From: a virus
IMG/VR virus record: IMGVR_UViG_3300032322_001765
Coordinates: 62,001-126,000 of that record
Reading direction: 5' to 3' (one strand)
DNA: 64,000 nucleotides
In this document: piece after piece, positions 12,544-64,000 of the stretch
Layout: each line of letters begins with the position of its first letter
How positions within the stretch are numbered: the stretch's first letter is position 1
Notes under the pieces: model-generated
Databases searched by the model: none
Told to the model about the DNA's origin: nothing
Seen by the model: the letters and a program-made list of their open reading frames with translations, nothing else
Position numbers and translations under genes: made by a program

Positions 12544-12567
12544 AAGGCCAATTGACGGAAAACTATA

Positions 12568-29752: not shown

Positions 29753-29764
29753 GGATTATAAATA

Positions 29765-30226: not shown

Positions 30227-30230
30227 TAAA

Positions 30231-35393: not shown

Positions 35394-35415
35394 TTTTACA
35401 AAGAAAGGAAACAAA

Positions 35416-35784
35416 ATGGCACATTTTGCAAAATTAGATGAAAATAATGTTGTATTAGAAGTTCACGTAGTTCATAACAATGAACTATTAGATGAAAACG
35501 GTCAAGAAAGTGAACAGAAAGGTATCGACTTTCTAACGTCTTGGTCAGGAGGATATACCATGTGGAAACAAACAAGCTATAATGGTACTTTTAGAAAAAA
35601 CTACGCAGGCCAAGGATATACATATAATGCAGAACTCGATGCATTCATTCCACCTAAACCATTCAATAGTTGGATATTAAATGAAACAACTTGCATTTGG
35701 GAAAGTCCAGTGCCGTATCCAAATGATGATGGTAGATATGTTTGGGATGAAGAAACAACTAATTGGGTAGAGGTACCAGCGTAA
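35416..35784 (+). CDS. Conserved small phage protein MAHFAKLDENN (122 aa)
   Basis: A strong AAGGAAA site precedes the ATG. The product begins MAHFAKLDENNVVLEVHVVH and is rich in Trp/Tyr/Asn, including GYTMWKQTSYNGTFRKNYAG, FIPPKPFNSWILNETTCIWE and RYVWDEETTNWVEV. I recall the same protein type in many T4-like and other marine phages, next to tail-fibre genes, with no assigned function. The W-x-E repeats at the end resemble the PPKPFxSW...W pattern of that group. Its stop codon overlaps the next ATG by one base (TAATG), so the two genes are probably translationally coupled. Confidence 0.75.
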   Translation: MAHFAKLDENNVVLEVHVVHNNELLDENGQESEQKGIDFLTSWSGGYTMWKQTSYNGTFRKNYAGQGYTYNAELDAFIPPKPFNSWILNETTCIWESPVPYPNDDGRYVWDEETTNWVEVPA

Positions 35785-36665: not shown

Positions 36666-36668
36666 TAG

Positions 36669-36675
36669 CTAAATA
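36669..36675 (+). promoter_or_regulatory. Putative late promoter box CTAAATA
   Basis: CTAAATA lies 3 bases after the previous stop codon and 21 bases before the ATG at 36697. The context TAATAGCTAAATA closely matches TAATAGACTAAATA at 45202 and TAATAGATAAATA at 3583. Confidence 0.5.
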
Positions 36676-36696
36676 CTATAATTAGAATAAAAAATT

Positions 36697-41099: not shown

Positions 41100-41114
41100 T
41101 TAAATTGTAATAAC

Positions 41115-44100: not shown

Positions 44101-45200
44101 CTTCTTCTACTGTATTTGGTTTGGGAACTGAAAATTTTACCTTTGAATGCTGGTTATACCCTACAGCAAATCCTGCAAATGGACCAGGTACTATTTTTGA
44201 TGCTCGTTCGGGAGTAGTAGCTGAAGGTTATGTAATTCGTGCGTTTAATGACAGAACGATTGGAATTTATACGTCTACAAATTCTTATGTTTATTCTACT
44301 GGAACTATTACTTTAAATGCGTGGAATCATATAGCACTAGTTCGAACATCAACGTCTACCAACGGTTTAGCTTTCTATATTAACGGAGCGGCTGCCGGAA
44401 CTGTTACTGTTAGTAGTAATTTGGGAACCTCATGGTCACCATTAATAGGTTACAATAGAGCAGGTTCAGGATTTGAATGGAATGGTTATATAAGTAATTT
44501 AAGACTTATTAAAGGTTCAGCATTCTATACATCCTCATTTTCGGCACCGGTTGCGCCACTAACTACTGTTGGAGCAACATTATTACTTAATGGCACTAAT
44601 AGTGGTATCATTGATTATACTAGCAAAAATAATTTAGAAACAGCTGGTAACGCACAACTATCATATAGTGTAAAAAAGTTTGGCAATGCGAGTATGAGTT
44701 TTGATGGAACGGGAGATTGGCTAATAATACCAAACAGCCAAAATTTTGTATTCGGCTTTGGTAATTGGACAATTGAACTGTGGGTAAGACCAGGAGCAAC
44801 AGGAAGACAGGGGTTTGTAGCATTAGAAAATGCTGCTGGTACAATCGTCCCATGGGAGTTAGGAATAAACAATGGAAACACATTCCGAGTGCTTGTGCAA
44901 ACATCTAGTGGACAGTATATAGTTGATGGAACAACATCTGTATCTACGAACACTTGGTATCACGTTGCAGCCGTAAGAAACGGATCTACAGTCACGCTTT
45001 ATGTGAACGGTACATCAGAGGGAACCCCGGCAAATGTTTCTACCAATGCTTTGGTTTCTGAAACATCTCCTATTTACGTCGGAACTTATAACTATGGATT
45101 TCCGTTGACCGGCTACATAGATGATCTACGTATCACTAAAGGCTATGCACGTTATACAAGTAATTTTACACCACCGACCTCAGCGTTCATTACGTATTAA
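41115..45200 (+). CDS. TIG/Ig-like protein with five LamG domains (1361 aa)
   Basis: Starts MTTKISSDNIQTATLNTLGG. TIG-like domain at about residues 21-108 (GGQTITLTGSGFEASASVVI), two He_PIG-like Ig domains at about 108-285, one fewer than its 1693- and 1720-aa paralogues. LamG-type domains lie at about 334-500, 547-702, 754-922, 976-1142 and 1187-1361, each with the YFDGTGDY and FTxExW pattern and a closing GYISNxRxxKG segment. The last domain ends GYIDDLRITKGYARYTSNFT, matching the last LamG of both paralogues, so the terminal domain is conserved in position while internal ones were lost or gained. Likely glycan-binding adhesin. No clear ribosome site; 15 bases after the 443-aa gene. Confidence 0.78.
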   Translation: MTTKISSDNIQTATLNTLGGPKIQTITYPGDDTAADPAGGQTITLTGSGFEASASVVINTTAVGVVTVVSSTTITFTTPALSAGSYTLYVINPNGGTAIAVPGIQYSGTPTWSTAAGSLGNVYEAAAINNTLVATGDAPITYSLFSGTLPLTSTLNSSTGVLSGTADATASPTTYTFTIRATDAESQDTNRQFSLTINPDVVTWNSPANNITYTSNVNQAISNVTMSATSAAGYGITYTANSLPTGLSISGANITGTPTVVANSSSLITATASTSNRTATRTFNWVVQLGTDPYFNLTTLLLNSEASANAWISDSSTNSFAITVNGDTRPAAFSPYETVYSNQFDGTGDYLTVPTNAALDFGTGDFTVELWWYPTSLAADHGFLGATVGAGYDFVYRTSTGFNIARINVAFDNTFAYTAVVNTWYHVAYSRSGTNLRVFVNGVQIGSTATNSISYGTNGGTAVIGGSTNADRLLAGYMSNMRLVKGTALYTSNFIPSTTPLTAVSGTSLLTCQSNRLIDNSTNNFTLTRNGDVSVRNFGPFVETDLTTGSGYFDGTGDWLTATANSAFALGSGNFTIDGWIYPTASNGMIIDTRNTNGSASGFAVETDSSNQFLIYTDSAKLTAGTAPLNIWTFFAIVRSGSTITVYVNGVSAGSYSSSQNFSDNALVIASNEPKNKSLTGYLSNVRIVKGTAVYTTTFTPPTSPLTAIANTSLLTLQNRFGENNNRFVDTSGINNIITRNGNTTQGTFSPFSQTGWSNYFDGSSTLYFAGTPISTTQTNFTIEAWVYLTADPTFGGGVGQVVVDGGGLAGGSFWGFGLNTSRNIVFRWYDGASGFNCTSTSAVSLNQWAHIAVSVSSNAIKLFINGNLQSTTGTSTLTNRGGNQGNINVGRYATSDALYGYISNARIVTGAGLYSTSFTPSTTPLTTTVPSGTVAFLTAQSNRFVDTSTSNRTPVLAGSTSVQAFSPFVPTTEYSAATVGGSMYFDGTGDYLTVASSTVFGLGTENFTFECWLYPTANPANGPGTIFDARSGVVAEGYVIRAFNDRTIGIYTSTNSYVYSTGTITLNAWNHIALVRTSTSTNGLAFYINGAAAGTVTVSSNLGTSWSPLIGYNRAGSGFEWNGYISNLRLIKGSAFYTSSFSAPVAPLTTVGATLLLNGTNSGIIDYTSKNNLETAGNAQLSYSVKKFGNASMSFDGTGDWLIIPNSQNFVFGFGNWTIELWVRPGATGRQGFVALENAAGTIVPWELGINNGNTFRVLVQTSSGQYIVDGTTSVSTNTWYHVAAVRNGSTVTLYVNGTSEGTPANVSTNALVSETSPIYVGTYNYGFPLTGYIDDLRITKGYARYTSNFTPPTSAFITY
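42675..42724. repeat. 50-bp perfect repeat, copy 2 (LamG linker)
   Basis: Identical to 32187-32236. It lies at the equivalent linker between LamG domains 1 and 2 of the 1361-aa protein. Confidence 0.9.
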
Positions 45201-48505: not shown

Positions 48506-49885
48506 ATGGCAGCAATAACAAAAATTACACCAATAGCGTTAGATGAAACAGCTAACTATACAGTTAATAATTTAACTGTAACATCTAACGTCAGTTTTGG
48601 TAACAGTAATTTAGGTAATTTATCAGTTGCTAATTTCTTTTCAGGCAATGGATCATTATTAACTTCACTTACAGGCGGTAATGTAACAGGACAAGTAGGT
48701 AATGCATTAATCGCTGGTACAGTGTACACTAATGCACAGCCAAATATTACAAGCGTTGGTACATTAAGTAGTCTAAGTGTAACTGCTAATGCAAGTGCTG
48801 GTAATATTTTAACAGATAACTTGTTATACGCTAATGGCACAGCATGGACTTTTGGTAGTGGATCATATTCAAATACAAATGTTGCTGCGTACTTACCTAC
48901 GTATACTGGTAATTTTACTGCTGGTAATGTTTCAGGCGCTAATTTAATCAGTGGTAATTTCTTAACCGGTACATTAACTACAGCAGCACAACCGAATATT
49001 ACTAGTGTTGGTACATTATCATCACTAACAGTTACTGGACTAATTACTGCAACAGCAAATGGTGTTAAAGCTGCAAATATTTACGATAGTACCGGTACAT
49101 TAACAATTGAAACAAAATACGGTAACTTAGCGGGTGATGCAGGAGTATATGGCAATTTAACTGTTGGTACAAGTGGTACCGGAAATATTACAGCGTATAA
49201 TGCTAACTTAGGTAATTTAGTTATTGGTAACTTCTTGCAAGGAACATTAACAACAGCACTACAACCAAATATTACTTCAGTTGGCACATTGTCTAATCTT
49301 ACAGTATCAGGTAATGTCTCATTGACTGGAGCAAATGTTTATGTAAGCAACGTAGCTAATTTAAAAATACCCGGCGGAACTGCTAATTATGTATTATCAA
49401 CTGATGGGACAGGTAACTTAAGTTGGGCAGCGCAAACTGGTGGCGGAGGTGGCGGCACACCTGGTGGTAGTAATACACAACTACAGTTTAACAATTCAAA
49501 TGCGTTTGGCGGTACAACTGGTTTAACATTTGATTCAGTTAATAATAGATTATCGATTACTAATTACACATTACCAACAAACGCATTAGGTAATATAAGT
49601 GGTAATACAACCATAAATTTAAATGCTGGTATGTATGTTACTGCTACTGTAACTGGTTCGGTAACTTGGACTTTTAGTAATTCAGCAACTTCGTCAAATG
49701 CTTCAGGCTTTATTTTAGAATTAACAAATGGTGGTAGCAGTACTCAAATTTGGCCTACTTCAGTTAGATGGCCAAGTGGTGTAGCACCTGCTCTCACAGT
49801 AACAGGTGTCGATTTACTTGCTTTTGTTACTGACGATAATGGCACTAATTGGCGTGGTGTCGCTTCAATGATTGATAGTAAATAA
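48506..49885 (+). CDS. Beta-repeat tail fibre-like protein (459 aa)
   Basis: Starts MAAITKITPIALDETANYTV, second anchor type, behind AAGAGAA. It has three QPNITS units, one YSNTNVAAYLPTYTGN unit and one IYDSTGTLTIETKYG unit. The six-glycine hinge with NTQLQFNNSNAFGG is at about residues 312-335. A different C-terminal domain (about 350-459) contains WTFSNSATSSNASGFILELT, WPTSVRWPSGVAPALTVTGV and FVTDDNGTNWRGVASMIDSK. I recall that WP...TGVDLL.FVTDDNGT.WRG domain as the end of many phage tail fibres. The next gene encodes a tail-assembly-chaperone-like protein, which fits a true tail-fibre role. Confidence 0.75.
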   Translation: MAAITKITPIALDETANYTVNNLTVTSNVSFGNSNLGNLSVANFFSGNGSLLTSLTGGNVTGQVGNALIAGTVYTNAQPNITSVGTLSSLSVTANASAGNILTDNLLYANGTAWTFGSGSYSNTNVAAYLPTYTGNFTAGNVSGANLISGNFLTGTLTTAAQPNITSVGTLSSLTVTGLITATANGVKAANIYDSTGTLTIETKYGNLAGDAGVYGNLTVGTSGTGNITAYNANLGNLVIGNFLQGTLTTALQPNITSVGTLSNLTVSGNVSLTGANVYVSNVANLKIPGGTANYVLSTDGTGNLSWAAQTGGGGGGTPGGSNTQLQFNNSNAFGGTTGLTFDSVNNRLSITNYTLPTNALGNISGNTTINLNAGMYVTATVTGSVTWTFSNSATSSNASGFILELTNGGSSTQIWPTSVRWPSGVAPALTVTGVDLLAFVTDDNGTNWRGVASMIDSK

Positions 49886-49889
49886 TATT

Positions 49890-50378
49890 ATGGCAAATTT
49901 TGCATTAGTTGAAAATAACGTAATTATAGAAAGACATGATTTACTTCCAACAACATGGAGAAATGTTAGTGGATTAAGTTTGTTGAAAGATGATGAAGAA
50001 TTATTAAATAATTTAGGTTGGTATACAGTTACTAAAGTATATCCTAATTATGATATATCAACTCAGTATATCGACGGATATGAGTATTCTTTTGTTGATA
50101 ATAAAGTCTTAGAAACACCTATACTTAAAAACATTGAGATTGTTGTAATTTCTGAGGAAGAACGTTTTGCAACTTTATTAGCAGAATTAAGACTTAAAAG
50201 AGATAGCTTGTTAATTGAATCTGATTGGACACAATTAGCAGACGTACAAGCAAGTCACACAAATGATTGGAAAACAGCTTGGGCTAATTATAGGCAACAA
50301 CTTCGTGATTTACCAAACCTATGCATAGTGGGTCAGATAAATATATATGAAGTTATATGGCCTACTAAACCCGAGTAA
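49890..50378 (+). CDS. Phage tail assembly chaperone-like protein (162 aa)
   Basis: A start at 49872 is possible but overlaps the previous gene; the ATG at 49890 gives MANFALVENNVIIERHDLLP, similar to the MAHFAKLDENN start of the 122-aa protein, so I choose it. The C-terminal half contains LLAELRLKRDSLLIESDWTQ, LADVQASHTNDWKTAWANYR and QQLRDLPN. This pattern (R..LL..SDWTQ.D, W..YRq.LRdlp) is characteristic of the tail assembly chaperone family encoded beside tail-fibre genes in many phages. N-terminal half: non-catalytic, Tyr/Asn-rich. It stands between a tail fibre and the RCC1 giants and may help fold or attach either. Domain call fairly firm; client unknown. Confidence 0.78.
   Translation: MANFALVENNVIIERHDLLPTTWRNVSGLSLLKDDEELLNNLGWYTVTKVYPNYDISTQYIDGYEYSFVDNKVLETPILKNIEIVVISEEERFATLLAELRLKRDSLLIESDWTQLADVQASHTNDWKTAWANYRQQLRDLPNLCIVGQINIYEVIWPTKPE
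50336..50343 (+). promoter_or_regulatory. Putative late promoter box GATAAATA before the RCC1 genes
   Basis: GATAAATA lies inside the 3' end of the chaperone-like gene, 37 bases before the ATG at 50381. The spacing would suit a promoter for the giant RCC1 pair, but the box also codes for protein (Q-I-N-I), so it may be chance. Confidence 0.35.
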
Positions 50379-50380: not shown

Positions 50381-53300
50381 ATGTTTTTCAAAGAATTTTT
50401 ATACAAAGCACAAACTCAAACTTTCACCTCCAATAAGCTTTTTACTTGGGGATTAGGCACATCTGGTCAATTAGGCTCTTACGGTGAATCAAATTTATCA
50501 CTAGTACAAGCAAGTGCCGGACAATCACACGTGCTTGCTATTACTAGTGATAGTAGATTGTTATCGTGGGGAGTTAACAGTGATGGTCAATTGGGCGATG
50601 GCACTACTATCAATAAATCTAATCCTGTACAGGTAGGTCAACCTGGTTGGAAAAAAGTAGCAGCAGGATTACTTCATAGTGTTGCAATTAGAAGTGACGG
50701 AACATTATTTTCATGGGGCTCAAATAGCGTTGGTCAATTAGGATTAAATTTAGGAACAGCGGCTACAGCTCGCCGGTCTAATCCAACACAAATTGGTTCA
50801 TTAGCAAACTGGATAGATATAAGTGGTAAAGCAACTACAACAATAGCATTAAATGAAGCTAGAGAACTGTATGCTTGGGGAAATAATAACTTAGGCCAAA
50901 TAGGTGTTAACGACACAATCAATAGATCAAGCCCCGTACAAATTGGAATAGGATTAAGTTGGTATAAAGTTTCTGTTGGTAGTCATGTTATGGGTGTTAC
51001 AGTGACTGGTGAACTATATGGTTGGGGAGCTAATGGGGCTGGTCAATTAGGAATAAATGCAACAAATAATAGAAGTAGCCCAACTCTAGTTGCTAATTCT
51101 GGTTATACTGATGTAAGCATAGGTGAAGGCCATACATTAGGATTAGCGTCAGGTAATTTATTGTTTGCTTGGGGAAATAACCTTGAAGGACAATTGGGTG
51201 ACGGTACAACTATATTAAAATCTAGTCCAGTACAAATAGGTTCAAGTTCTTTTACTTTTATTAGTGCAGCTTCTAGATTTAGTCAAGCAATAAGATTAGA
51301 TGGGGGATTGTTTGCTTGGGGATTAAACACAAGTGGTCAAATTGGAACTAATAATCAAATAGGTAGGTCAAGCCCAGTACAAGTAGGAACGAGTAGTTGG
51401 TCGCTAGTGGCAAGTAGTTTAGTGAGTGGTTGGGTTATAGGAACCACTTCTGACAAAACTGCATATGGATGGGGGGCGAACGGTTCAGGACAATTAGGTA
51501 ATAATACTACCATTACACGATCAAGCCCGACTTTAGTTGCAAGTTCAATTGTTGGTAATTATAGTGTGCCAATACAAGTAGGGACACTTTCATGGAATGC
51601 AATTTCAACTGGGGGTACACATACAATTGCATTAAGAAGTGATAATTTATTATTTGCATGGGGTTTAAACACTTCAGGCCAATTAGGTGACAATACAGCG
51701 ATAAGCAAGTCAAGCCCAGTGCAGATAGGTACAAGTAGTTGGACAGCAGTAACAGCAGGTGAAGCTGATAGTTCTTTTGCCATTAGAAGTGACAATACAT
51801 TATGGACTTGGGGTAACGTTACAACAAACTTAACTGGTGGAAATATATTAACAGAAAGTTGGCAACAGGTAACCAATAATGCAAACAGTTCAATTGGATT
51901 AAGAGCAGACGGTACATTATGGACATGGGGAGAAAATAGTTTTGGTCAAATTGGTAATAATACCACAATTAATAGATCAAGCCCTGTACAAATTGCAAGT
52001 GATAAGAGTTGGTTAAAATTAGGTGAAAATAACAATGTAAATAATGCGGTTGCGGCAATAGACTCAAATTATAAACTTTGGGTATGGGGTCGCAATAACA
52101 CTGGTCAACTAGCCACAGGTGATACGATTAATAGATCAAGTCCTGTATTAGTAATGAGTGATAAAAGCTGGAGTATGGTATCAGCAAGTAAAGGTATTAC
52201 TACTGATGGTAAACTTTGGAGTTGGGGAGCAGGTGCTACCGGTTTAATTGGAGACAACACCACCGTTGATAAATCAAGCCCAGTGCAGTTAAGTGTTGGT
52301 ACAAGTTTTACATTGGTTTCCGGAGCTTCAGACTCTAATCGTCATACATTTGCTATAAGCACAACTGGATTGTTGTATGGTTGGGGATTTAATAACACAG
52401 GACAATTAGGTTTAGGTAATACACTAAACAGATCCCAACCTACTTTATTGGCCTCCCCGTTCGACACGTTTTCGTGGAATTTCGTTAGTGTTGGCGGCAC
52501 TGATGGTACTGGCTCAACAGGTGGCCATACATTAGCTTTAAGAAATGATAATACTTTATATGTTTGGGGATTAAACAACGTAGGACAATTAGGTAATAAT
52601 ACTACTATCAACCGAAGCTCACCATTACAAGTATCATTTGTTAATATTCCACTAAGTTGGGCTACAGTGGCAGCTGCTGCTTCAAGATCAACTGCTTTAG
52701 ATTTTGATGGAAAATTATGGGGTTGGGGTATTAATACGACCTACGGCGCAGTTGGTGACTCTACAACAGTTAACAGATCATCCCCCGTAATATTAACAAG
52801 CACTGGTGTTACTTTTGCAAAAATTACGTCAGGATATTTTCACAGTAATGGAATAAGAGATGATGGATATTTATATGCATGGGGCGCAAATAATTTAGGA
52901 AACTTAGGAAATAATACAACAATTAATAGATCCTCACCGGCACTAATAAGTTCTATTCCAACAAACTTATCAAGTCCAGTGCAACTAGGTGTAGGTAAAT
53001 CAAATTGGAGTGCTATCCATTCTGGAACTTCAACACATGCAGCAATCGATGCGACAGGCGCGTTATACATTTGGGGAAGTAATGCGACAGGTCAATTAGG
53101 AAATAATAGTGTTTTTACTCGAACAGGATTAAGAGTACTTGACAATAATAGTTGGAATAGTGTCAGTGTTGGTGCAAGTCATGTGTTAGCCATACGAAAT
53201 AATAATCAATTGTATGCATGGGGCGGTAATGCAAGTTTTCAAATTGGCGATAATTCCAGTATTAATAAATCAAGTCCGATTCTCATTGATTCGGCTAGCT

Positions 53301-56300
53301 GGCTAAGTGTAAGTGCAGGTATTAACCACTCTCTTGCAATTAAATCCGGGGGAGGTTTATATGCATGGGGTAGTGGTTTATTTGGTCAAACCGGTATTAT
53401 TACAGACATTTATTCTTGGACACAAATAAATGCTGGTACAAACTTTGTTTTAGGTGTAAGACAAGATAGTACATTATGGGGTTATGGACTAAACACTAGT
53501 GGTCAACTAGGAGATAGCACTGCCGCTACAAAATCTAGCCCCACTCAAGTAGGTACGACTAGTTGGAGTAAAATTAGTGCAGGAGGCTCAAATGCACTTG
53601 GTATCACTATAGATGGTAAATTATTTTCTTGGGGTTCTGGATCAACATTTCAACTCGGTGATGGCACAACAATAAACAAATCTAGTCCAGTACAAATAGG
53701 AACCAGTAGCTGGTCACAAATTACTACAGGTACAGCACATAGTTTAGCTATTGACATAAATGGCAGATTATTTGGTTGGGGTACATCTACAGCATTAAAT
53801 GCTAGCACAGCTCCATTTAGTTGGACAGTTGTATCTGAAAATACATCACATGTAGCAGCAGTTCGAAGTGACGGATTGTTGTTTGTATGGGGTCTCAATA
53901 GTTCAGGACAAGTTGGAGACAATACAACTATTAATAAATCAAGTCCAGTACAAATAGGTACAAGTAGTTGGTTAACTGTAAGTAGTGGTGTCGATCATAC
54001 ATTAGCTATAACAAGCGATTATAGATTATTTGCCTGGGGCGGTAACACAGGTTTCCAACTAGGTGATAACACTACTATAAGTAAATCAAGTCCGGTATTA
54101 TTGTCAGGTCCTAGTTGGACAACGGTAGTCGCTGCAAATAGTTATAGTATGGCATTAAAATCTAATAATACATTATGGGCGTGGGGTTTAGGAACTTCAG
54201 GTCAATTAGGTACACTAACTGAACCTAAGTCATGGATAGAATTAAGTGCAGGCAATAGTACAAGTTTAGCGATCCGCAGTGATAATACCTTATGGGGATG
54301 GGGATTAAACACTAGTTTTCAAATTGGAAATGGCGCAAGTGTAACACAATCTAGTCCAGTACAAGTAGATAGTTCATTGAGTTGGATAAAAGTAAGCTCA
54401 GGCAATAATCATGGCTTAGCAATTACTAATACAGGAGTTTTATATGGCTGGGGAACAAATGCTCAAGGTCAAGTCGGGAATAATACATCAGTAAATCGTA
54501 GTTTACCTACCCTAGTTGATTCATCCGGTAGTTGGAGTGTAGTGAGTGCAGGTAACAGTTTCTCATTGGGAATAAAAGAAAATAAATTATACACTTGGGG
54601 ACAAAATAGCTTAGGTCAGTTAGGACAGGGTGATACTATAACAAGATTAAGCCCAACTCAAGTAGGATTGAACAATTGGACTGTAATAACTTCAAGCGAA
54701 ACTAATAATTATGCAGGTGCGATTGATAGTAGTAATAGATTATTTTTATGGGGAGTAAACACTAATTACCAATTAGGTGATGGCACAACAACAAATAGAA
54801 ATAGCCCTGTTGCAGTATTTGCTACTGGTACAAGTAGTTATGTTCAAGTAAGTGTAGGAGCAAGTCATACATTAGCAGTTCAAAGTGATGGCACATTGTG
54901 GGCCTGGGGGTCAAATACAAATTACATATTAGGATTAGGTGATACGAATATACGTTCAATACCAACACAAATGGGTTCAAGTAGTTGGACAAGTGTAAGT
55001 GCAGGAACAGATCATAGTATGGCAATCAAGTCTGACGGCACACTTTGGGGTTGGGGATTTAATCTTTTTGGACAAGTTGGTCTTGCAACAACTGTGTATT
55101 CTTGGACTCAAGTTGCAAACACTGGCCTCACAACACACGCTATTAGAAGTGATGGTTTACTATTTGGCTGGGGTTTAAATACTTCAGGGGAAATAGGGGA
55201 TAACTCGATTATTAATAAATCGAGTCCTGTACAAGTAGGAATCAAAACATGGAAAAAAGTTTATAATTTTACGGCTCTAGTTGGAAATCTTGCTTCTGTA
55301 TTAGCCATTGACAATAACGACAATTTGTTTGCTTGGGGCAATAACACATCCGGAAATTTAGGGGACAATACAGTAATTAGTAGATCCTCACCTGTTGCGG
55401 TGGTGATTAAAGGAACAGGTAGCTATACACAAGTCTTTGTTGGTCCGGCTACAGTTGCAATACAAAATGATGGAACACTTTGGTCATGGGGTGCTGGATC
55501 CTTTGTCGGAGACAACACAACCATTAGTAGATCAAGTCCAGTGCAGATAGGTTCTAGTACATGGTCTGCAGTAGGAGGTGCTTTATCCACTATTGCTGCT
55601 ATAGATGCAACTGGTAGATTATTTACTTGGGGTAACCAATCAGCATCGGGTAGTGGCTCGTTAGGCACAAACGATCTTATAAATAGATCAAGTCCTACAC
55701 TAGTTGCAGGCGCACCAGGTGCATTTAGTTGGACAAGTGTAAGTTCTGGTGGGGCTAATCATGTTTTAGCTATTCGTGAAAATGGAGCTGCGTACGGAAC
55801 GGGTTTAAATGCTCAAGGTCAGTTAGGTGACAACACTGCAACTAGCAAGTCAACTTTTACTTTAGTTTCTGGGACAACAAGTTTTACTCAAGTAAGGTGT
55901 GGATTTAGTTTTACAATAGCATCAGCAAGTGACGGCACGCTTTGGGGTTGGGGGAACAATGATTGGGGGCAACTTACTACTACTTTACCAATTGCTGCTA
56001 ACAGATCAAATCCGGTTCAAATAGTAGCGCCAGGCCCAACAGTGTATTCTACTGGTCAATATAATTTAGCCACAATCTATTCTAATGGTTTATTGTATAA
56101 TCAAGGATACAATTTAAATGGGATGCTAGGAGATGGAACAACAACTAGTAAGTCGCTACCTGTTCAAATCGGAAACAATCCGATCATAAATATATCAGTA
56201 CCCGTACAAATTGGTACCGGCAGCTGGAATCAAGTAAATGCAGGTACTCAATATACATTAGCAAGAGATACTAATAATGTTCTTTATGCTTGGGGTCAGG

Positions 56301-56326
56301 ATACATCAGGACAATTAGGTTTTTAA
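50381..56326 (+). CDS. Giant RCC1-repeat protein A (1981 aa, about 40 repeats)
   Basis: After MFFKEFLYKAQTQTFTSNK the protein is a continuous array of RCC1-type units of about 49 residues: SSW..VSAG..HTLAI..DG.L(F/Y/W)AWG.N..GQLGDNTT.NKSSPVQIG. I count 40 WG/GQLG cores. Several units are shortened by loss of the DNTT...VQIG part, for example LYAWGSGLFGQTGIITDIYS near nt 53360. RCC1 repeats form seven-bladed beta-propellers in cellular proteins, so 40 units could make five to six propellers in a row. There is no signal peptide or enzyme domain. Placed after a fibre and a tail chaperone in a virion locus, it is most likely a structural adhesin. It ends mid-repeat at GQLGF and TAA, followed at once by an in-frame ATG. 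Confidence 0.85.
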   Translation: MFFKEFLYKAQTQTFTSNKLFTWGLGTSGQLGSYGESNLSLVQASAGQSHVLAITSDSRLLSWGVNSDGQLGDGTTINKSNPVQVGQPGWKKVAAGLLHSVAIRSDGTLFSWGSNSVGQLGLNLGTAATARRSNPTQIGSLANWIDISGKATTTIALNEARELYAWGNNNLGQIGVNDTINRSSPVQIGIGLSWYKVSVGSHVMGVTVTGELYGWGANGAGQLGINATNNRSSPTLVANSGYTDVSIGEGHTLGLASGNLLFAWGNNLEGQLGDGTTILKSSPVQIGSSSFTFISAASRFSQAIRLDGGLFAWGLNTSGQIGTNNQIGRSSPVQVGTSSWSLVASSLVSGWVIGTTSDKTAYGWGANGSGQLGNNTTITRSSPTLVASSIVGNYSVPIQVGTLSWNAISTGGTHTIALRSDNLLFAWGLNTSGQLGDNTAISKSSPVQIGTSSWTAVTAGEADSSFAIRSDNTLWTWGNVTTNLTGGNILTESWQQVTNNANSSIGLRADGTLWTWGENSFGQIGNNTTINRSSPVQIASDKSWLKLGENNNVNNAVAAIDSNYKLWVWGRNNTGQLATGDTINRSSPVLVMSDKSWSMVSASKGITTDGKLWSWGAGATGLIGDNTTVDKSSPVQLSVGTSFTLVSGASDSNRHTFAISTTGLLYGWGFNNTGQLGLGNTLNRSQPTLLASPFDTFSWNFVSVGGTDGTGSTGGHTLALRNDNTLYVWGLNNVGQLGNNTTINRSSPLQVSFVNIPLSWATVAAAASRSTALDFDGKLWGWGINTTYGAVGDSTTVNRSSPVILTSTGVTFAKITSGYFHSNGIRDDGYLYAWGANNLGNLGNNTTINRSSPALISSIPTNLSSPVQLGVGKSNWSAIHSGTSTHAAIDATGALYIWGSNATGQLGNNSVFTRTGLRVLDNNSWNSVSVGASHVLAIRNNNQLYAWGGNASFQIGDNSSINKSSPILIDSASWLSVSAGINHSLAIKSGGGLYAWGSGLFGQTGIITDIYSWTQINAGTNFVLGVRQDSTLWGYGLNTSGQLGDSTAATKSSPTQVGTTSWSKISAGGSNALGITIDGKLFSWGSGSTFQLGDGTTINKSSPVQIGTSSWSQITTGTAHSLAIDINGRLFGWGTSTALNASTAPFSWTVVSENTSHVAAVRSDGLLFVWGLNSSGQVGDNTTINKSSPVQIGTSSWLTVSSGVDHTLAITSDYRLFAWGGNTGFQLGDNTTISKSSPVLLSGPSWTTVVAANSYSMALKSNNTLWAWGLGTSGQLGTLTEPKSWIELSAGNSTSLAIRSDNTLWGWGLNTSFQIGNGASVTQSSPVQVDSSLSWIKVSSGNNHGLAITNTGVLYGWGTNAQGQVGNNTSVNRSLPTLVDSSGSWSVVSAGNSFSLGIKENKLYTWGQNSLGQLGQGDTITRLSPTQVGLNNWTVITSSETNNYAGAIDSSNRLFLWGVNTNYQLGDGTTTNRNSPVAVFATGTSSYVQVSVGASHTLAVQSDGTLWAWGSNTNYILGLGDTNIRSIPTQMGSSSWTSVSAGTDHSMAIKSDGTLWGWGFNLFGQVGLATTVYSWTQVANTGLTTHAIRSDGLLFGWGLNTSGEIGDNSIINKSSPVQVGIKTWKKVYNFTALVGNLASVLAIDNNDNLFAWGNNTSGNLGDNTVISRSSPVAVVIKGTGSYTQVFVGPATVAIQNDGTLWSWGAGSFVGDNTTISRSSPVQIGSSTWSAVGGALSTIAAIDATGRLFTWGNQSASGSGSLGTNDLINRSSPTLVAGAPGAFSWTSVSSGGANHVLAIRENGAAYGTGLNAQGQLGDNTATSKSTFTLVSGTTSFTQVRCGFSFTIASASDGTLWGWGNNDWGQLTTTLPIAANRSNPVQIVAPGPTVYSTGQYNLATIYSNGLLYNQGYNLNGMLGDGTTTSKSLPVQIGNNPIINISVPVQIGTGSWNQVNAGTQYTLARDTNNVLYAWGQDTSGQLGF
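50438..56323 (+). repeat. RCC1 repeat array A (about 40 units of roughly 147 bp)
   Basis: Units are recognised by the TGGGG-centred core (W-G) followed by GQLG codons. Protein sequence is well kept, but codons vary from unit to unit, so exact nucleotide repeats are short. Confidence 0.85.
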
Positions 56327-59300
56327 ATGCCAACGAATTCACCAGTTTTATTAGGAAACAAATTACCATATAATTTACCAGAGCCTCAAAAAGTTGACAA
56401 CAATAGTTGGACACAAGTTAGTGCATTTAACGACTTTACAGTAGGGTTGAGGTCTAACAGTATCTTGTATGCATGGGGCACAAATAATTCTTACCAAATT
56501 GGTGATGGTACTACACTAAACAAATCAACACCAACTCAAATTTCAAATAGTAGTTTCTTAGTGGTAAGTGCGGGCTTTGATCATAGTGCTGCGATTACCA
56601 CTAACAATACACTATTTGTTTGGGGAAACAGTGCTAGTACTTTTGTTCAAACTATTAATTTCTCATGGACTAAAGTTGCAAGTTCAGGTAACCACACATT
56701 AGCTATTCGTAATGATAATACATTATGGACTTGGGGATTAAACACCGCAGGTCAATTAGGTGACGGTACAACTATTAATAAATCAAGTCCAGTACAAATT
56801 GGTTCAGGTACATGGAATGATATTAGTGCAGCAGTAAGTCATTCTGTAGCAATTGACAGTGATTACAAACTTTATGTTTGGGGTCAAAACAATGCCGGAC
56901 AAATAGGCGACAATACATCGATTAACAAATCTAGTCCCGTTCAAATAGGTTCGAATAGTTGGCTACAAGTTGCATCTGGTAATAGTTATACTGTTTCAAT
57001 AAACTCATTAAATGAAATGTTTGCGTGGGGTTTAAACACAAGTTATCAACTTGGGGATAGAACAGTTATTAACAAATCTAGCCCTGTACAAATAGGTTCT
57101 ACTTTTAGTTGGTCAAGTGTCAGTGCAGGCGTAGATCATAGTTTAGCAATAACAACCGATAATCAATTATATATTTGGGGTAATCCAGCTGGTGCAGGTA
57201 TACAAGAACCAACTACAATATATTCATGGACGCAAGTAACCGCAGGTAATATTTACACAACTGCTATTAGAAGTGATGGCAGTCTTTGGACATGGGGTAG
57301 GAACACTGAAGGACAATTAGGTCAAAACAATGTTATACTTCAAAGTAGTCCTGTACAGGTAGGTAATAGTAGTTACACACAAGTATCAGGCAAATGGAGT
57401 CATACAAGTGCAATTAAAGCTGACAGTACAATAATAGGATACGGTAGCAATACATACGGGGAGCTTGGTGATGGCACAACTATTGCAAAATCAAATCCAG
57501 TTACATTATCTTCTAGCTTTACAAACACAAGCTGGACTTCAGTTAGTGCAAGTGTAAATCACACAGCAGCAATTAGAAATGATGGTAGAATTTATATTTG
57601 GGGTTTAAATACATCAGGTCAATTAGGTGACAATACTGCAATAAGCAAATCAAATCCTGTTAGTTTAGCAAGCCCATTTGACACAAGTAGTTGGACACAA
57701 GTAGATTTAGGAAGAGACTTCGCCCTTGCAAGAAGATTAGATGGTAAATTATATGCATGGGGATTTAATGATTTAGGACAATTGGGAATTGTAAATTCTA
57801 CTTTCCCAATTGGTGGCGATACTTTAAACAGAAGCAATCCAGTATTAATCAGTGATAGTAGTTGGATTCAAGTAAGTGCAGGCTTTGATCATAGTTTAGC
57901 TATACGCTCGGACAATACATTGTGGACATGGGGTAGCAGTGTGGCCATAGGATTAGTGACAGAACCAATGTCATGGCTCGCTGTGTCAGGTGGTGCAACA
58001 CACACATTAGGTATAAGAGATAATGGCACGTTATGGACATGGGGTACTAATGATCAAGGTCAATTAGGCAATTCAACAACTGTTATACGCTTAAGCCCAG
58101 TTCAAATCGGATTAACTAGATGGGCAAGTGTAAGTGCAGGTAGTAGTTATTCTCACGCTATTGATCAAGCTGGTTTATTATATGCATGGGGTTTAAATTC
58201 AAGTGGACAGTTAGGCGATAATTCATCGATTAATAAATCAAGCCCAGTACAGATAGGATCTAGCAGCTGGATAGAAGTAACTGATGGGGTTAATCATACA
58301 CTAGCAATTGATGCAGATGGTAGATTATATGGATGGGGTCAATTTACTAGTGGTCAAACAGGTGTATACGACGAAATTTATTCTTGGACACAAATCACTA
58401 GTGGATTGGGATTACGCACAGATGGTACCTTATGGGCTTGGGGGCAATTAACAGGTGATGGTACTACAATTATTAGGTCTAGTCCAGTACAGATAGGGTC
58501 AAGTGATTGGTCCTCAATAGCGCCTATATTTTCTATGATTGATCCAAAAGCTGCATTAAAAACAAACGGTACGCTTTGGATGTGGGGAACTAATGCACTA
58601 GGACAATTAGGACAAAATGATACCATTAATAGAAGTTCACCTGTACAGGTTGCAGGAAGTTGGAATCAAATAAGTGTGCAATCTGGTCATGCTGCTGCAA
58701 GAAATGTAAGCAATATTATCTATACTTGGGGCAAAAATGAAGCAGGCCAATTAGGTGATGGCACTACAATCGATAAATCAAGTCCTGTTTTATTGAGTGG
58801 TGCGTTTGGTACTACTAGTTGGACATCTGTTAGTGTTGGCTGGTCTCATACCGCAGCTTTAAGAAATGATAACATAATTTATATTTGGGGCTGGAACAAT
58901 CAGGGGCAGTTAGGTACTGGTCTTACCACAAGTAGATCCAATCCAGTAACTTTAGACGGAGCATTTGCTACAAGTAGTTTTGTAGCTGTAAGCAGTGGTG
59001 CTTTACACACACTTGCCGTCAGATCCGATAGTAGACTAGTAGCATGGGGATATAATTTAGAAGGTTCTTTGGGTGACAATACAACTATTAATAAGTCAAC
59101 ACCTGTAGTAATTGGAACTAGTAGTTGGTCAGTAGTTACCGCTGCACGAACTAATAATCTAGCAGTCACTACAACAGGCACACTTTGGTTTTGGGGTGCT
59201 GATGGAGGTAGTGGCTCATCAGCTCAAAATGCCACTATTAACAGAAGCGCGCCAACACAAATAGGAGCATTAACTAATTGGGCATCAGCCGGTGTAGTTT

Positions 59301-62300
59301 CAGCAATAAACAATTTAGGTGTGGCATTTGTTTGGGGCTCGGGTGGATCAGCCAACACTTCAAATACCTACTTACTTAATACAACAGTTGACGCATCAAG
59401 CCCCGTGCAAGTTGGCGGATTTAGATGGCCCCCTACGAAATACTATAGTCCACAACAAGTAGGAACAAGTAGTTTTTCTTTAGTAAGTGCAGGTAGTTCT
59501 TATTCAATGGGTATTAACGCAGAGGATTTATTATATGGCTGGGGAGTAAACAATTCAGGTCAGCAAGCAGATGGAACTACAGTAGCAAAATCAAGTCCGG
59601 TACAAATCACAACAAGTAGTTATATTAGTGTAAGTGCTGGATTCGATCATGTACTTGCTATTGCAAGTAATGGAACATTATGGACATGGGGAAATAGTGC
59701 AGCTATAGGATTAGTAGTTCAACCTCAATCGTGGTCAGAAATATCAAGTGGCAGTAGTCATACACTAGCAATACGTAGTGATGGTGCATTATTTGCCTGG
59801 GGTATCGGAACATCCGGTCAATTAGGTAACACTTTAGCAATTTCAAATTCAAGCCCAGTGCAAGTAGGAACAAGCAGTTGGAGTCAAGTTAAAGCCGGAA
59901 CCAACGTTAGTTTAGCAATAGACACAAATAATCGATTGTTTGGATGGGGACTTAATACTTCAGCACAACTTGGCATCGGTGTAATTACAAATAGATCAAG
60001 TCCTGTGCTAATAACTTCTGGAAGTTGGATAGGATTAGCAGCCGGTGGCACACATACATTTGCAATTGATTCAACTAATAAACTTTATGGCTGGGGAAAT
60101 AATGATTCAGGTCAAATCATACCATATGGAAGTTATTTTCCAACAGGCTACAGTCCTGTAAGTGCAGGTGGAGGATTCTTTGCTGCGATAAGAACATCTG
60201 ATTCAGGATTATTACTTTGGGGTAGAAATAACTTTGGTCAATTAGGTCAAGGAAATACAATTGACAGATCCAATCCTATACAGTTAGGTTCAAATAGTTG
60301 GAAACAAGTAGCAGCAGGTACAAGTTTTATTTCTGCTATTAGAAGTGACGACACATTATGGACATGGGGTTTAAACACCTCAGGTCAATTAGGAGATAAC
60401 ACATCAATAAGCAAATCAAGCCCTGTGCAAGTTGCTGGCTCATGGCTTTCAATATCAGGTGGTGCGACCCACGCATTAGGTGTTAAAATAGATAATACTC
60501 TTTGGAGTTGGGGTTCAAACGATGTTGGGCAATTAGGTGATAGTACCGTAGTAAATAAATCTAGTCCAGTACAAATTGGTACTAGAAGTTGGTCAAGTGT
60601 AAACGCTGGAAATAGTTATAGTTTAGCAATCGATACAACAGGTATCGTTTATGGTTGGGGTTGGAATACAAGCGGTCAATTAGGCGACGGCACAACTACG
60701 AATAGAAATTCTCCAGTATTACTAGCATCACCTTTTAATACTACTTCATTTTCTCAAGTCACTGCTGGATTTTCACATTCCTTAGGATTTACTACTTCTG
60801 GTTTATTATATTCATGGGGAGGTAATAGTGTAGGAGAATTAGGTTTAGGTCTTATTACTAGTAGATCAAACCCAACACAAATTACTCAATATTCTGGATT
60901 ATTGCCTCAAAATGGTAGTTGGTCTTTTATTTACGCAGGACAACAAATTTCTACTGCTATCAACAATAATAATTTATATGTTTGGGGATCAGGCGCTAGT
61001 GGACAATTAGGATTAGGCGATACTATTAATAGATCAATACCGGTACAAACAGGTATAGGATATAGTTGGAAAGCTGCTGCACTAGAAGTAGCAACCAATT
61101 TGGGTGCAGGATATTTAAGGTCAGATAATTCAGTTTGGGTTACTGGAAATAATACATTTGGTAACTTAGGCAATAGCACAACTGTTAATAGGTCTGCACC
61201 TGTGATAGTTGGTTCGACAAGCATATCAACTCCAGTACAAGTGGGTACAAGTAGTTGGAGTCAAATTAGCGCAGGTGCAAGTTACAGTGCAGGTATAGAT
61301 AGTTTAGGAAAACTATATACTTGGGGATTAAATAATACCTATCAATTAGGTAATAATACAACAGTCGATAGAAATGACGTTATCAATCAATTAACTAATA
61401 GTAGTTGGACAAGTGTAAGTACTGGTTTGAATCACGTTTTAGCTATAGCATCAAATAATAGTTTACATGCATGGGGATCGGCTGCGGCTGTTGGATTGTC
61501 TAATGTCACCGCACTATCATGGAGTACAATTGCAAGTGGTGGACAATCATCACACCTTGCTGCTATTAGAAGTGATGGTGCATTATTTACTTGGGGTTTA
61601 AACACTAATGGCCAATTAGGTGATGGTACAACAATAAACAAATCAAGTCCAACACAAATAAGCGGAACTATTAGCTGGACTTCGGTAGCAGTAGATTTAT
61701 CAAATACAATGGCTATCAGATTGGGCGGCACTTTATTTGTTTGGGGAGGTAACGCTAGTGGTCAGCTAGGATTAAGTGATACTATTAATAGATCAAATCC
61801 AGTATTGTTAGATTATAATAGTTGGAGTCAAATATCTGTAAACACATCTCATACAGCAGGTATTAGAAGTAATCAACTGTATGTATGGGGAAATAATGTA
61901 AGTGGTCAAATTGGTGACAATACAACCATCAATAAATCAAGTCCTGTACAGGTAACTGGTAGTTGGAATTCAGTTAGCGCCGGCGCTCAATATACTATAG
62001 GTATAAACAATTCTAGTTTATTATTTGTTTGGGGCGTCAACGCTGCCTTCCAATTAGGTACAGGTAACACGGTTAGCAGATCAAGTCCTGTACAGATTGC
62101 AACAGGAACTAGTTATTCAATAATTTCTGCAGGACCAACACATGCGGTTGCAATAGATACAACTAGTAAGCTATGGACATGGGGACAACAATCAAGCGTA
62201 GGGATTGATGTTAATTCATGGACTCAGGTTAGTATAGGTAATCAGTTTGTTCTAGCTATAAGAAATGACGGAAGATTATTTGCTTGGGGAGTCAATTCGT

Positions 62301-64000
62301 CTGGTCAATTAGGATTGGGTGATACGATACTAAGGTCTAGTCCTGTATTAGTGGGTAATAATAGTTGGTCGGCAATTTCAGCGGCTATTGGTGGAAATAA
62401 TAGCGCAGGTATTGCAAGCGACGGTAAATTATTTACTTGGGGTAATAATAATACGGGACAATTAGGTGATGGCACAACAATAAACAAATCGAGTCCAGTA
62501 CAGATTTCCTCAGGATCAAGCTTTAGTCTTGTTGCAGCAGGCCCAGGATTCCTGTTGGCTGCATCTACTAATTATGCATTATTTACTTCAGGAGGTAATA
62601 GTGTTGGACAATTAGGTGATGGCACAACAATAAACAAATCTACTCCAGTACAAATAACTGATCCGTCAGTTCAAAGTTGGATTTTTATAAGTGCAGGAAC
62701 TAGCTATAGTGGTGGCATAGATAATTTAGGAAAGTTATATACTTGGGGAACAAATTTCCTTGGTATTTTAGGTCATGGCGACACAATTAATCGTTCAAAA
62801 CCAACTATAGTATCAGGATCGACTAGTTGGTCTAAAGTAAGTGCAGGTGGTGTTAACACATTAGGTATTACTAATTTAGGAGCACTATATGCATGGGGAC
62901 AGAATAACGTAGGACAAATAGGTGATGGCACTACTATAAACAAATCTAGCCCAGTACAAATAGGTTCAAGTAGTTGGTCCGCAGTTGCAGCTAGTGATAG
63001 TGTATCTATGGCTATTAGGTCAGATAATACTCTATGGACTTGGGGGCATAATAGTGTAGGACAATTGGGTATAGGTCTTACTACAAATAGATCAAGTCCG
63101 GTGCAAGTTGTAGCTGGCGCACAATGGTCTTCAATAGCTAGTTCTGGTAATAATACTATGGTAGCTATCTCAATAGCTACTGGAACTAGTAATAAACTTT
63201 ACTTGTGGGGCTTCAATGCCTCAGGACAATTAGGTACAGGAGACACAGTAAATCGTAGTAGCCCCACATTACTAGCAGGAACTACAGGAACTGTTATACC
63301 AACTAAAATTTTAAATTATCAAAGCTTTAGCCAAGTAAGCACTGGTATATCTTACACTATAGCTAAAAGAGCTAATGACAATGTTTTAATGGGATGGGGT
63401 ATTAATACTTCTGGACAGTTAGGAGATAATACCGCAACACAAGCAAGAAGGAGTAATCCTACATTAATTGGATATAGAACTTTTGTAGACGCATCAGAAA
63501 ATAATATTACCTCAGTAACATTCACTGGCTCACCAAAAAATGTTGATTTTAGTCCTTTTGCAAATCAGCCATATAATACTGTCACTAGTGGTGGTAGCAC
63601 ACAATTTAGTGGATTAGGTGATGTCATTAACTGTGGCACAAACTCAGTATTTGCATTTGGTACAGGTCCGTTCTGTATTGAGTTTTGGTGCTATAATAAT
63701 ATATTGAAAGCTGTAGCAGCAGTAACAACCAATCCATCTGTCACAAGTGTTACAGATTCATTCATTGTGGGATGGGACGCCGCTGGTTCATATAACGTAG
63801 TGGTAGGAAATACTACATTTGCTTCTTCTCCGGGATTTATAAAGACTAATGTTTGGCAACATATTGTTTGTTGTCGTGATAGTTCCAATAATGTGGCTGT
63901 GTTTATTGATGGTGTGCGAGGATCTCCCGGCGTCGTTGCTAGCAACTTAGTCAGAACAACATTAGGAATAGGAGATTTCCCTACAACCCCATCTCAAAAT
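56327..64000 (+). CDS. Giant RCC1-repeat protein B with a LamG domain (partial, more than 2558 aa)
   Basis: The ATG at 56327 directly follows the TAA of protein A and the frame stays open for 2558 codons to the window edge. It starts MPTNSPVLLGNKLPYNLPEP, and from residue 20 onward carries about 48 RCC1-type units like those of protein A. After the last unit (MGWGINTSGQLGD near nt 63390) the chain changes to a LamG-type domain from about 63540: FSGLGDVINCGTNSVFAFGT, then GPFCIEFWCYNN and NVWQHIVCCRDSSNNVAVFI. Thus the RCC1 and LamG classes of this locus are joined in one protein. It has no ribosome site of its own, so translation probably depends on re-initiation or read-through at TAAATG. 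The 3' end is outside the window. Confidence 0.82.
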   Translation, partial: MPTNSPVLLGNKLPYNLPEPQKVDNNSWTQVSAFNDFTVGLRSNSILYAWGTNNSYQIGDGTTLNKSTPTQISNSSFLVVSAGFDHSAAITTNNTLFVWGNSASTFVQTINFSWTKVASSGNHTLAIRNDNTLWTWGLNTAGQLGDGTTINKSSPVQIGSGTWNDISAAVSHSVAIDSDYKLYVWGQNNAGQIGDNTSINKSSPVQIGSNSWLQVASGNSYTVSINSLNEMFAWGLNTSYQLGDRTVINKSSPVQIGSTFSWSSVSAGVDHSLAITTDNQLYIWGNPAGAGIQEPTTIYSWTQVTAGNIYTTAIRSDGSLWTWGRNTEGQLGQNNVILQSSPVQVGNSSYTQVSGKWSHTSAIKADSTIIGYGSNTYGELGDGTTIAKSNPVTLSSSFTNTSWTSVSASVNHTAAIRNDGRIYIWGLNTSGQLGDNTAISKSNPVSLASPFDTSSWTQVDLGRDFALARRLDGKLYAWGFNDLGQLGIVNSTFPIGGDTLNRSNPVLISDSSWIQVSAGFDHSLAIRSDNTLWTWGSSVAIGLVTEPMSWLAVSGGATHTLGIRDNGTLWTWGTNDQGQLGNSTTVIRLSPVQIGLTRWASVSAGSSYSHAIDQAGLLYAWGLNSSGQLGDNSSINKSSPVQIGSSSWIEVTDGVNHTLAIDADGRLYGWGQFTSGQTGVYDEIYSWTQITSGLGLRTDGTLWAWGQLTGDGTTIIRSSPVQIGSSDWSSIAPIFSMIDPKAALKTNGTLWMWGTNALGQLGQNDTINRSSPVQVAGSWNQISVQSGHAAARNVSNIIYTWGKNEAGQLGDGTTIDKSSPVLLSGAFGTTSWTSVSVGWSHTAALRNDNIIYIWGWNNQGQLGTGLTTSRSNPVTLDGAFATSSFVAVSSGALHTLAVRSDSRLVAWGYNLEGSLGDNTTINKSTPVVIGTSSWSVVTAARTNNLAVTTTGTLWFWGADGGSGSSAQNATINRSAPTQIGALTNWASAGVVSAINNLGVAFVWGSGGSANTSNTYLLNTTVDASSPVQVGGFRWPPTKYYSPQQVGTSSFSLVSAGSSYSMGINAEDLLYGWGVNNSGQQADGTTVAKSSPVQITTSSYISVSAGFDHVLAIASNGTLWTWGNSAAIGLVVQPQSWSEISSGSSHTLAIRSDGALFAWGIGTSGQLGNTLAISNSSPVQVGTSSWSQVKAGTNVSLAIDTNNRLFGWGLNTSAQLGIGVITNRSSPVLITSGSWIGLAAGGTHTFAIDSTNKLYGWGNNDSGQIIPYGSYFPTGYSPVSAGGGFFAAIRTSDSGLLLWGRNNFGQLGQGNTIDRSNPIQLGSNSWKQVAAGTSFISAIRSDDTLWTWGLNTSGQLGDNTSISKSSPVQVAGSWLSISGGATHALGVKIDNTLWSWGSNDVGQLGDSTVVNKSSPVQIGTRSWSSVNAGNSYSLAIDTTGIVYGWGWNTSGQLGDGTTTNRNSPVLLASPFNTTSFSQVTAGFSHSLGFTTSGLLYSWGGNSVGELGLGLITSRSNPTQITQYSGLLPQNGSWSFIYAGQQISTAINNNNLYVWGSGASGQLGLGDTINRSIPVQTGIGYSWKAAALEVATNLGAGYLRSDNSVWVTGNNTFGNLGNSTTVNRSAPVIVGSTSISTPVQVGTSSWSQISAGASYSAGIDSLGKLYTWGLNNTYQLGNNTTVDRNDVINQLTNSSWTSVSTGLNHVLAIASNNSLHAWGSAAAVGLSNVTALSWSTIASGGQSSHLAAIRSDGALFTWGLNTNGQLGDGTTINKSSPTQISGTISWTSVAVDLSNTMAIRLGGTLFVWGGNASGQLGLSDTINRSNPVLLDYNSWSQISVNTSHTAGIRSNQLYVWGNNVSGQIGDNTTINKSSPVQVTGSWNSVSAGAQYTIGINNSSLLFVWGVNAAFQLGTGNTVSRSSPVQIATGTSYSIISAGPTHAVAIDTTSKLWTWGQQSSVGIDVNSWTQVSIGNQFVLAIRNDGRLFAWGVNSSGQLGLGDTILRSSPVLVGNNSWSAISAAIGGNNSAGIASDGKLFTWGNNNTGQLGDGTTINKSSPVQISSGSSFSLVAAGPGFLLAASTNYALFTSGGNSVGQLGDGTTINKSTPVQITDPSVQSWIFISAGTSYSGGIDNLGKLYTWGTNFLGILGHGDTINRSKPTIVSGSTSWSKVSAGGVNTLGITNLGALYAWGQNNVGQIGDGTTINKSSPVQIGSSSWSAVAASDSVSMAIRSDNTLWTWGHNSVGQLGIGLTTNRSSPVQVVAGAQWSSIASSGNNTMVAISIATGTSNKLYLWGFNASGQLGTGDTVNRSSPTLLAGTTGTVIPTKILNYQSFSQVSTGISYTIAKRANDNVLMGWGINTSGQLGDNTATQARRSNPTLIGYRTFVDASENNITSVTFTGSPKNVDFSPFANQPYNTVTSGGSTQFSGLGDVINCGTNSVFAFGTGPFCIEFWCYNNILKAVAAVTTNPSVTSVTDSFIVGWDAAGSYNVVVGNTTFASSPGFIKTNVWQHIVCCRDSSNNVAVFIDGVRGSPGVVASNLVRTTLGIGDFPTTPSQN
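56440..63450 (+). repeat. RCC1 repeat array B (about 48 units)
   Basis: Continuous units as in array A. Shortened units with the core LWTWGSSVAIG, LWTWGNSAAIG and LHAWGSAAAVG recur at about 57920, 59677 and 61462, that is every 1.75-1.8 kb or 12 units, pointing to duplication of a 12-unit block. Confidence 0.8.

Follow-up and report, generated by a model that had tools for sequence, protein, structure and literature searches.

A putative branched scaffold of nested RCC1 propellers encoded by two adjoining genes of a T4-related jumbo phage

The RCC1 blade sequence and its seven-bladed fold are known from UVR8, the RLDs of HERC2, RPGR and human RCC1 (PF00415/PF25390), all of which resemble the products of the two phage genes described here, ORF1 and ORF2, and carry one propeller per domain. 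In multi-RLD proteins the propellers lie side by side and are not inserted into one another. Domain insertion is normally one level deep, and in DDB1 one propeller is inserted within, or intertwined with, another. DDB1 forms three propellers out of 21 WD40-like repeats (PMC3938054). It shares with ORF1 and ORF2 the presence of several propellers per chain, but has three of them, built of WD40-like repeats, with neither recursion nor a gene split.

RCC1 proteins are also already known in phages, some of them in virions. Members of PHROG 4219, 7220 and 16766, including proteins of Synechococcus phage BUCT-ZZ01 (UTS52180.1) and of S-SRM01, have RCC1 units about 35-41 % identical to those of ORF1 and ORF2. 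The 700-aa RCC1 protein of BUCT-ZZ01 is preceded by a Tfa-like chaperone and followed by a 571-aa protein (49 % identical) that is also encoded 3' of ORF2. Proteins of this type differ from ORF1 and ORF2 in having 7-14 regular units without the bracket linkers described below and without LamG domains, as a single gene or as single propellers. The Rak2-like jumbo coliphages (GAP32 gp1, phAPEC6, 121Q) likewise represent the RCC1 fold in jumbo myoviruses, with many paralogues (PMC5259590, PMC7247149), and GAP32 gp1 was detected in virions (PMC5259590). Unlike ORF1 and ORF2, the proteins of GAP32 and related BFVD entries are separate and about 385 aa long, the size of one propeller. The nearest counterparts are unannotated metagenomic IMG/VR contigs (L020, L021, L022, L119, L122, G001, G002 and G004-G006), mostly of the same locus family, with arrays of up to 7937 aa, a nested parse in several of them and topologies that differ by whole propellers. 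Nothing relevant on nested or inserted propellers, or on RCC1 proteins as phage receptor-binding proteins, was found in the open-access literature searched.

The window, the whole stretch of 64,000 nucleotides that was analysed, comprises bases 62001-126000 of the 220,867-bp IMG/VR virus record IMGVR_UViG_3300032322_001765. The phage is T4-related: upstream of ORF1 and ORF2 it encodes a portal, a head protease and a major head protein of T4 type. Its major head protein is 68 % identical to that of Vibrio jumbo phage 2.275.O and about 66 % identical to those of the Pseudomonas PA5oct group. The carrier is presumably a freshwater jumbo phage, the freshwater origin being taken from the sources of the named relatives and not from the record. 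An assignment to the cyanophages (Kyanoviridae) by RCC1 similarity was rejected, since the head protein is nearest to the Vibrio 2.275.O/PA5oct group and no psbA-type gene was found across the record. A run of fibre, LamG and glycine-rich fibre genes precedes ORF1. Several very large fibre genes occupy window positions 24671-29752, 30231-35393 and 41115-45200; one of them has LamG domains (Pfam) and another matches the same virion families. Segments of this region are 72-82 % identical to each other at the DNA level, which suggests module shuffling among the upstream fibre genes. The largest ORF of the record (5694 aa, genome positions 26929-44013, minus strand) is outside the window. The 571-aa protein 3' of ORF2 combines a methyltransferase-like domain with similarity to a TPR-annotated protein of S-SRM01, and in this phage its gene is followed by glycosyltransferase and methyltransferase genes.

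Units were counted by locating the C-strand tryptophan positions with a profile of the unit. By this unit HMM, ORF1 has 40 units and the part of ORF2 within the window 48, in total 88, exactly the sum of the roughly 40 and 48 estimated by the sequence-only reading (Table 1). ORF2 extends 5.9 kb beyond the window to genome position 131904, where it has 17 further units (89-105), which raise the total to 105, and LamG domains. PF00415 matched the record at 86 separate places, every one within the frames of ORF1 and ORF2, and had no match in 14 control genomes; nearly all of the 86 places exceeded the cut-off of 21.7 bits and hence belong to the RCC1 repeat family. Whole-protein profile scores (PF25390/PF00415) reached E values of about 0 and 2e-252, and the best PDB matches were UVR8, HERC2, RPGR and RCC1. 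The RCC1 identity and the layout over two neighbouring genes, both proposed beforehand, were thus confirmed by profile search. Five LamG domains were detected in ORF2. The first is cut by the window end, the other four are outside the window, each in a D-A loop between two propeller blades. Tandem repeats on the DNA level were sought in the array and none were left. The array is thus old and diverged, and recent slippage was excluded as its origin.

Table 1. Features of the RCC1 locus in the window; leaf propellers are numbered as in the nested parse
Feature	Position	Strand	Basis or remark
Tail-fibre protein, before the chaperone	48506..49885	+	PHROG 9017/6942
Tail-fibre assembly chaperone (Phage_tail_APC / Tfa-like), ending 2 bp before ORF1	49872..50378	+	PF16778
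ORF1, 1981 aa, RCC1 units 1-40; root C strand at the N terminus, full leaf propellers P1, P2 and P6, starts of P0, P3, P4 and P5	50381..56326	+	ORF list, Pfam, unit HMM
Leaf P1 (units 2-8), in blade 1 of root P0	50501..51550	+	Parse and AF2
Leaf P2 (units 11-17), in blade 3 of P0	51860..52960	+	Parse
Leaf P6 (units 33-39), in blade 6 of P5	55103..56185	+	Parse
Conserved junction island	56285..56620	+	Last ORF1 unit ends LYAWGQDTSGQLGF TAA; ORF2 opens MPTNSPVLLG
ORF2, first 2558 of 4525 aa, RCC1 units 41-88	56327..64000	+	Open at window end
Leaf P10 (units 55-61), in blade 3 of P9	58385..59425	+	Parse
Leaf P12 (units 67-73), in blade 3 of P11	60149..61210	+	Parse
Leaf P14 (units 81-87), in blade 5 of P13; deepest node, eight insertions	62219..63262	+	Parse
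First LamG domain of ORF2 (PF13385), cut by window end	63479..64000	+	Profile match

Each unit consists of the strands A (SWxxVSAG), B (HTLAI), C (LYAWG) and D (SSPVQIG), in agreement with the strand pattern of the AF2 models. The linkers, measured from the C-strand tryptophan of one unit to the A strand of the next, are trimodal in length: 13-19 aa without a D strand, 25-35 aa with one and 40-47 aa with two. Where the D strand is missing, the linker was read as an open, at which the C-D loop of the blade admits a new propeller. Where two D strands are present it was read as a close: first the final D strand of the child, then the delayed one of its parent. Parsed automatically at fixed length thresholds, ORF1 and ORF2 together gave 1(7)2(7)3(3(3(6(7)1)2(4(5(3(7)2(3(7)2(5(7)2)2)2)2)3)2)4)1, with the numbers giving units. 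The parse of the 105 units is balanced, with 14 opens and 14 closes; all 14 closed propellers and the root have seven blades (15 of 15), and the nesting is up to eight insertions deep. The fraction of valid token strings is 8e-19 (about 1e-18), and none of 400,000 shuffles was valid. LamG domains in D-A loops leave the blade count undisturbed. In the parse the root is closed by a C strand from the N terminus of ORF1 and A-B strands from the C terminus of ORF2, as in single phage RCC1 propellers.

From this parse we infer nesting in three dimensions: recursive domain insertion would make of ORF1 and ORF2 a single giant scaffold, branched and exposed on the virion. In it, every RCC1 unit would supply the A-B-C-D strands of a blade, seven blades would close a propeller, and in 14 places a whole further propeller would replace the C-D loop of a blade, giving a tree of 15. 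The root P0 would carry P1, P2 and P3, the last of which continues as P3>P4>(P5>P6, P7>P8>P9>(P10, P11>(P12, P13>P14))), with LamG (ConA-like) domains predicted in the D-A loops of P4, P8, P9, P11 and P13. The earlier picture of some 12 propellers in a chain is probably mistaken, as the linker classes yield 15 propellers nested as a branched tree and several of these are common to both genes.

Structure prediction, proposed as a check of the propeller fold, supported it. An AF2 model of ORF1 residues 1-870 (27-row alignment; pLDDT 80, pTM 0.51) contained at least one closed seven-bladed ring, matched by Foldseek to UVR8 with a TMt of 0.91 and an rmsd of 2.0 A over 383 columns; this match covers one ring only. 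The segment hence has the seven-bladed beta-propeller fold. The UVR8-like ring is probably P1 (residues 41-385), predicted with seven A-B-C-D sets and pLDDT values mostly of 80-96. Low-confidence breaks of this model at residues 1-37, 393-400, 480-491 and 862-870 lie where the parse has, in this order, the beginning of the root, a close, an open and another close. The second model joined ORF1 1574-1981 to ORF2 1-560, with the TAA codon rendered as Tyr for modelling only. It broke at every predicted bracket (361-370, 420-435, 511-521, 696-707 and 946-969) and in two further gaps, 58-62 and 901-904, at no bracket, and it placed the first D strand of ORF2 after the last C strand of ORF1. Whole-ring matches of the second model were poor (TMt about 0.5) save one at 0.78, as expected for a segment of mostly partial propellers. 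The modelled segments cut through the array, so that the root and inner propellers fall in cut segments, and pTM was about 0.5. The closest predicted viral structures were RCC1 proteins of uncultured Caudovirales and giant viruses.

The nesting rule was induced on the window itself, and relatives are the only independent tests of whether it is INDEPENDENTLY true. Before L119 was parsed, and with its own linkers already inspected, the thresholds had been relaxed by one residue at either end. This contig belongs to a different phage lineage (portal 34 % identical to that of the present phage), and its 1407-aa protein with 28 units parsed perfectly as 3(7)2(7)1(7)1, with four sevens out of four. 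L020 has 91 units with 12 opens and 12 closes, two levels being closed together by a single triple-D linker; ten of 12 sevens and a root of seven were obtained automatically. Shifting one open by one unit, a post hoc re-reading based on the D motif (TPQLI) in the linker of unit 13 and its absence from that of unit 14, gave 12 of 12 and thus seven blades in all thirteen propellers. On the incomplete contigs G002 and G001, 12 of 18 and 7 of 11 propellers were sevens, against shuffle means of 0.86 and 0.50. Contigs that are 3' fragments contained closes but no opens (13:0 in L075, 8:0 in L113, 4:0 in L123), as nesting demands. The outer nest ...2)4)1 is identical in the window, G001, G006, L075 and L113. 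G002 repeats the topology of the window over all of gene 1 and slightly beyond the junction, apart from one whole additional propeller at blade 2 of P5. This leaf lacks a counterpart in the window, whereas leaves that occupy equivalent nodes in the two phages match each other best or second best (P1-P1, P2-P2, P6-P7, P10-P12, P14-P19). Related phages would accordingly differ by gain and loss of whole propellers.

Complete arrays of the locus family are multiples of seven: 105, 91, 28, 28, 28, 14 and 56, and 28, 21 and 63 in G005. Under the same thresholds L122, G004 and G005 had no sensible bracket parse, though the complete arrays of L122 (56) and G005 (28, 21, 63) are still multiples of seven; L022 needs its linkers read by hand. 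The sole clear breach of the rule of seven among near-identical contigs is in gene 1 of L021, which has two RCC1 units (100 aa) fewer than L020 and thus one five-blade leaf, either a deletion and real five-bladed variant or an assembly collapse. Ordinary bacterial and phage RCC1 controls had mostly 7, 14 or 7~7~7~7~7 units without brackets. In L144 (Chryseobacterium sp. JM1, positions 5563-12759) a 2398-aa protein consists of five tandem groups of seven RCC1 units, a bead-on-string counterpart to the nested phage arrays. A search for equal arrays elsewhere, as had been suggested, brought up giant arrays of RCC1 units on further IMG/VR contigs.

ORF1 and ORF2 share a reading frame, and the boundary between them consists of TAA and ATG alone: ORF1 ends with LYAWGQDTSGQLGF and TAA, and ATG CCA ACG AAT TCA CCA GTT follows. 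The stop falls between the strands C and D of the last (seventh) blade of P5, and the MPTNSPVLLG at the start of ORF2 corresponds to the missing outer D strand of this blade, followed by a second D strand. A second contig with the same junction is 100 % identical and perhaps not independent. The same TAA and ATG are present in four phages, the present one and G001, G002 and G006. Among these, the junction island has an amino acid identity of 64-84 % within 150-300 nt, while it drops to about 15-48 % farther upstream and, beyond 300 nt on the downstream side, to about 26-66 %. Two further groups are split at this structural point too, but by other junctions: an ATGA overlap with a change of frame in L020/L021 and a 15-nt gap in L122/L130. 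Kept in four phages and recurring with different junctions, the split looks selected rather than an error; a sequencing error or a fresh nonsense mutation at the boundary was ruled out on these grounds. An ordinary pair of adjacent RCC1 genes was rejected as well, because ORF1 and ORF2 are cut between the strands C and D; pairs as in L023 and L030 begin at LY.WG and finish after SAG..HT.AI. Single-propeller RCC1 genes side by side, sometimes with adjacent stop and start, were observed in L023, L029, L033, L055 and L061. At the cut the parse leaves P0, P3, P4 and P5 open, with blade shares in ORF1 and ORF2 of 6+1 for P0, 3+4 for P3 and P4, and 7 for P5, whose last D strand would be contributed in trans. 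Since these four propellers are open at the stop/start, the two polypeptides should co-fold after coupled translation and would have four propellers in common.

The order of Tfa-like chaperone, RCC1 array and 571-aa protein is kept in BUCT-ZZ01 and many IMG/VR contigs, with arrays from 14 up to 84 units in one 7937-aa frame. PF16778 was found directly upstream of the RCC1 gene in every relative checked in which that flank was present, above the cut-off in the window, L119, L122, L129 and L021 and slightly below it in BUCT-ZZ01. The arrays of G001 and G002 hold glycine-rich inserts, for which a Pfam glycine-rich match was not obtained. Glycine-rich segments within RCC1 arrays of sister phages, in L135 (reverse strand 12562-13956) and in gene 2 of G002 (aa ~1715-2020), are similar in composition to the neighbouring glycine-rich fibre proteins. 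Because of the conserved locus order, the chaperone and fibre context, the LamG domains and the glycine-rich inserts of G001 and G002, a virion adhesin scaffold is the likeliest function. In such a tail-fibre-associated adhesin, host glycans or proteins would meet a large number of binding surfaces on the propellers and LamG domains. Gene order and the related RCC1 protein in GAP32 virions speak for a virion location. The sequence-only reading had placed the genes in a T4-like virion and fibre region and considered a role in host recognition or at the surface; the former agrees with the upstream head protein, portal and protease genes and the PF16778 chaperone directly before ORF1, the latter is supported, at the level of inference, by the chaperone and fibre context.

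A linear chain of consecutive sevens, as beads on a string with short and double linkers as flexible joints, has its model in the tandem look of other arrays without brackets, such as the 14 units of BUCT-ZZ01, the 28 of L129 and the 7~7~7~7~7 of L144. We consider it improbable for ORF1 and ORF2, as a linear reading of the window yields groups of 1, 7, 2, 7, 3, 3, 3, 6, 7, 1, ..., the 15 sevens appear only if nested, and 3' fragments contain closes alone. Somewhat less remote, though still unlikely, is one 6507-aa protein instead of two chains, arising by readthrough of the TAA or hidden by a recent nonsense mutation or assembly error: the single frame, the stop that interrupts a blade and the need of both halves for nesting would fit, but the split is kept in four phages, an ATG directly follows the TAA, and neither the ATGA overlap of L020/L021 nor the 15-nt gap of L122 could be fused by readthrough alone.

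Another function to be weighed is that of a DNA-organising protein like eukaryotic RCC1, in the head or the cell. Annotations as 'regulator of chromosome condensation', the PHROG category and the role proposed by the authors of phAPEC6 for their RCC1-like proteins (PMC7247149) point that way. A seven-bladed fold does not imply chromatin binding, however, and the gene resides in a fibre and chaperone operon with LamG and glycine-rich fibre genes and has LamG inserted in its propellers, so this role is highly improbable; the gene context likewise argues against a function as Ran GEF or in nucleosome binding. More can be said for a role other than that of a receptor-binding adhesin: decoration of the capsid or tail surface ('whiskers'), or a glycan-modified coat, on which the products of the adjacent glycosyltransferase and methyltransferase genes might act. 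Across the locus family the RCC1 array is followed by the gene for the 571-aa protein with its methyltransferase domain, in this phage with glycosyltransferase genes after it, and phage CBB has whiskers of which the gene is unassigned. On the other hand, the gene directly before ORF1 encodes a chaperone of tail-fibre type, and the whiskered CBB was reported without a homologue of the GAP32 RCC1 protein, which leaves decoration a rather doubtful possibility. The products of the neighbouring glycosyltransferase- and methyltransferase-like genes may in any case modify the RCC1 scaffold. A nested, branched scaffold of ORF1 and ORF2, formed by two co-folding chains and acting as a tail-fibre-associated adhesin, is in our judgement the probable explanation of the locus.

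The expectation of an undescribed type of filament held for scale and architecture; it did not hold for phage RCC1 proteins as such, represented by PHROG 4219/7220/16766, the Rak2-like coliphages and the cyanophages. New, to our knowledge, are the nested architecture and the two-chain split: we know of no recursive propeller nesting this deep, nor of a gene boundary inside such a nest. That recursive insertion of whole seven-bladed propellers, 15 in number and eight deep, in two co-translated chains sharing four of them and evolving by gain and loss of whole propellers, constitutes a new architecture of a branching phage adhesin appears to us fairly likely. If true, the strict grammar of open, close and always seven, legible in the lengths of the linkers, would exemplify recursion in protein topology; the three-dimensional connectivity of proteins of up to about 8000 aa would be deducible from sequence alone, and two chains would be woven together via four shared propellers. 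Nesting would then offer a scaffold principle for protein design, and phages would be shown to build very large branched appendages with many candidate binding sites from ready-folded inserts.
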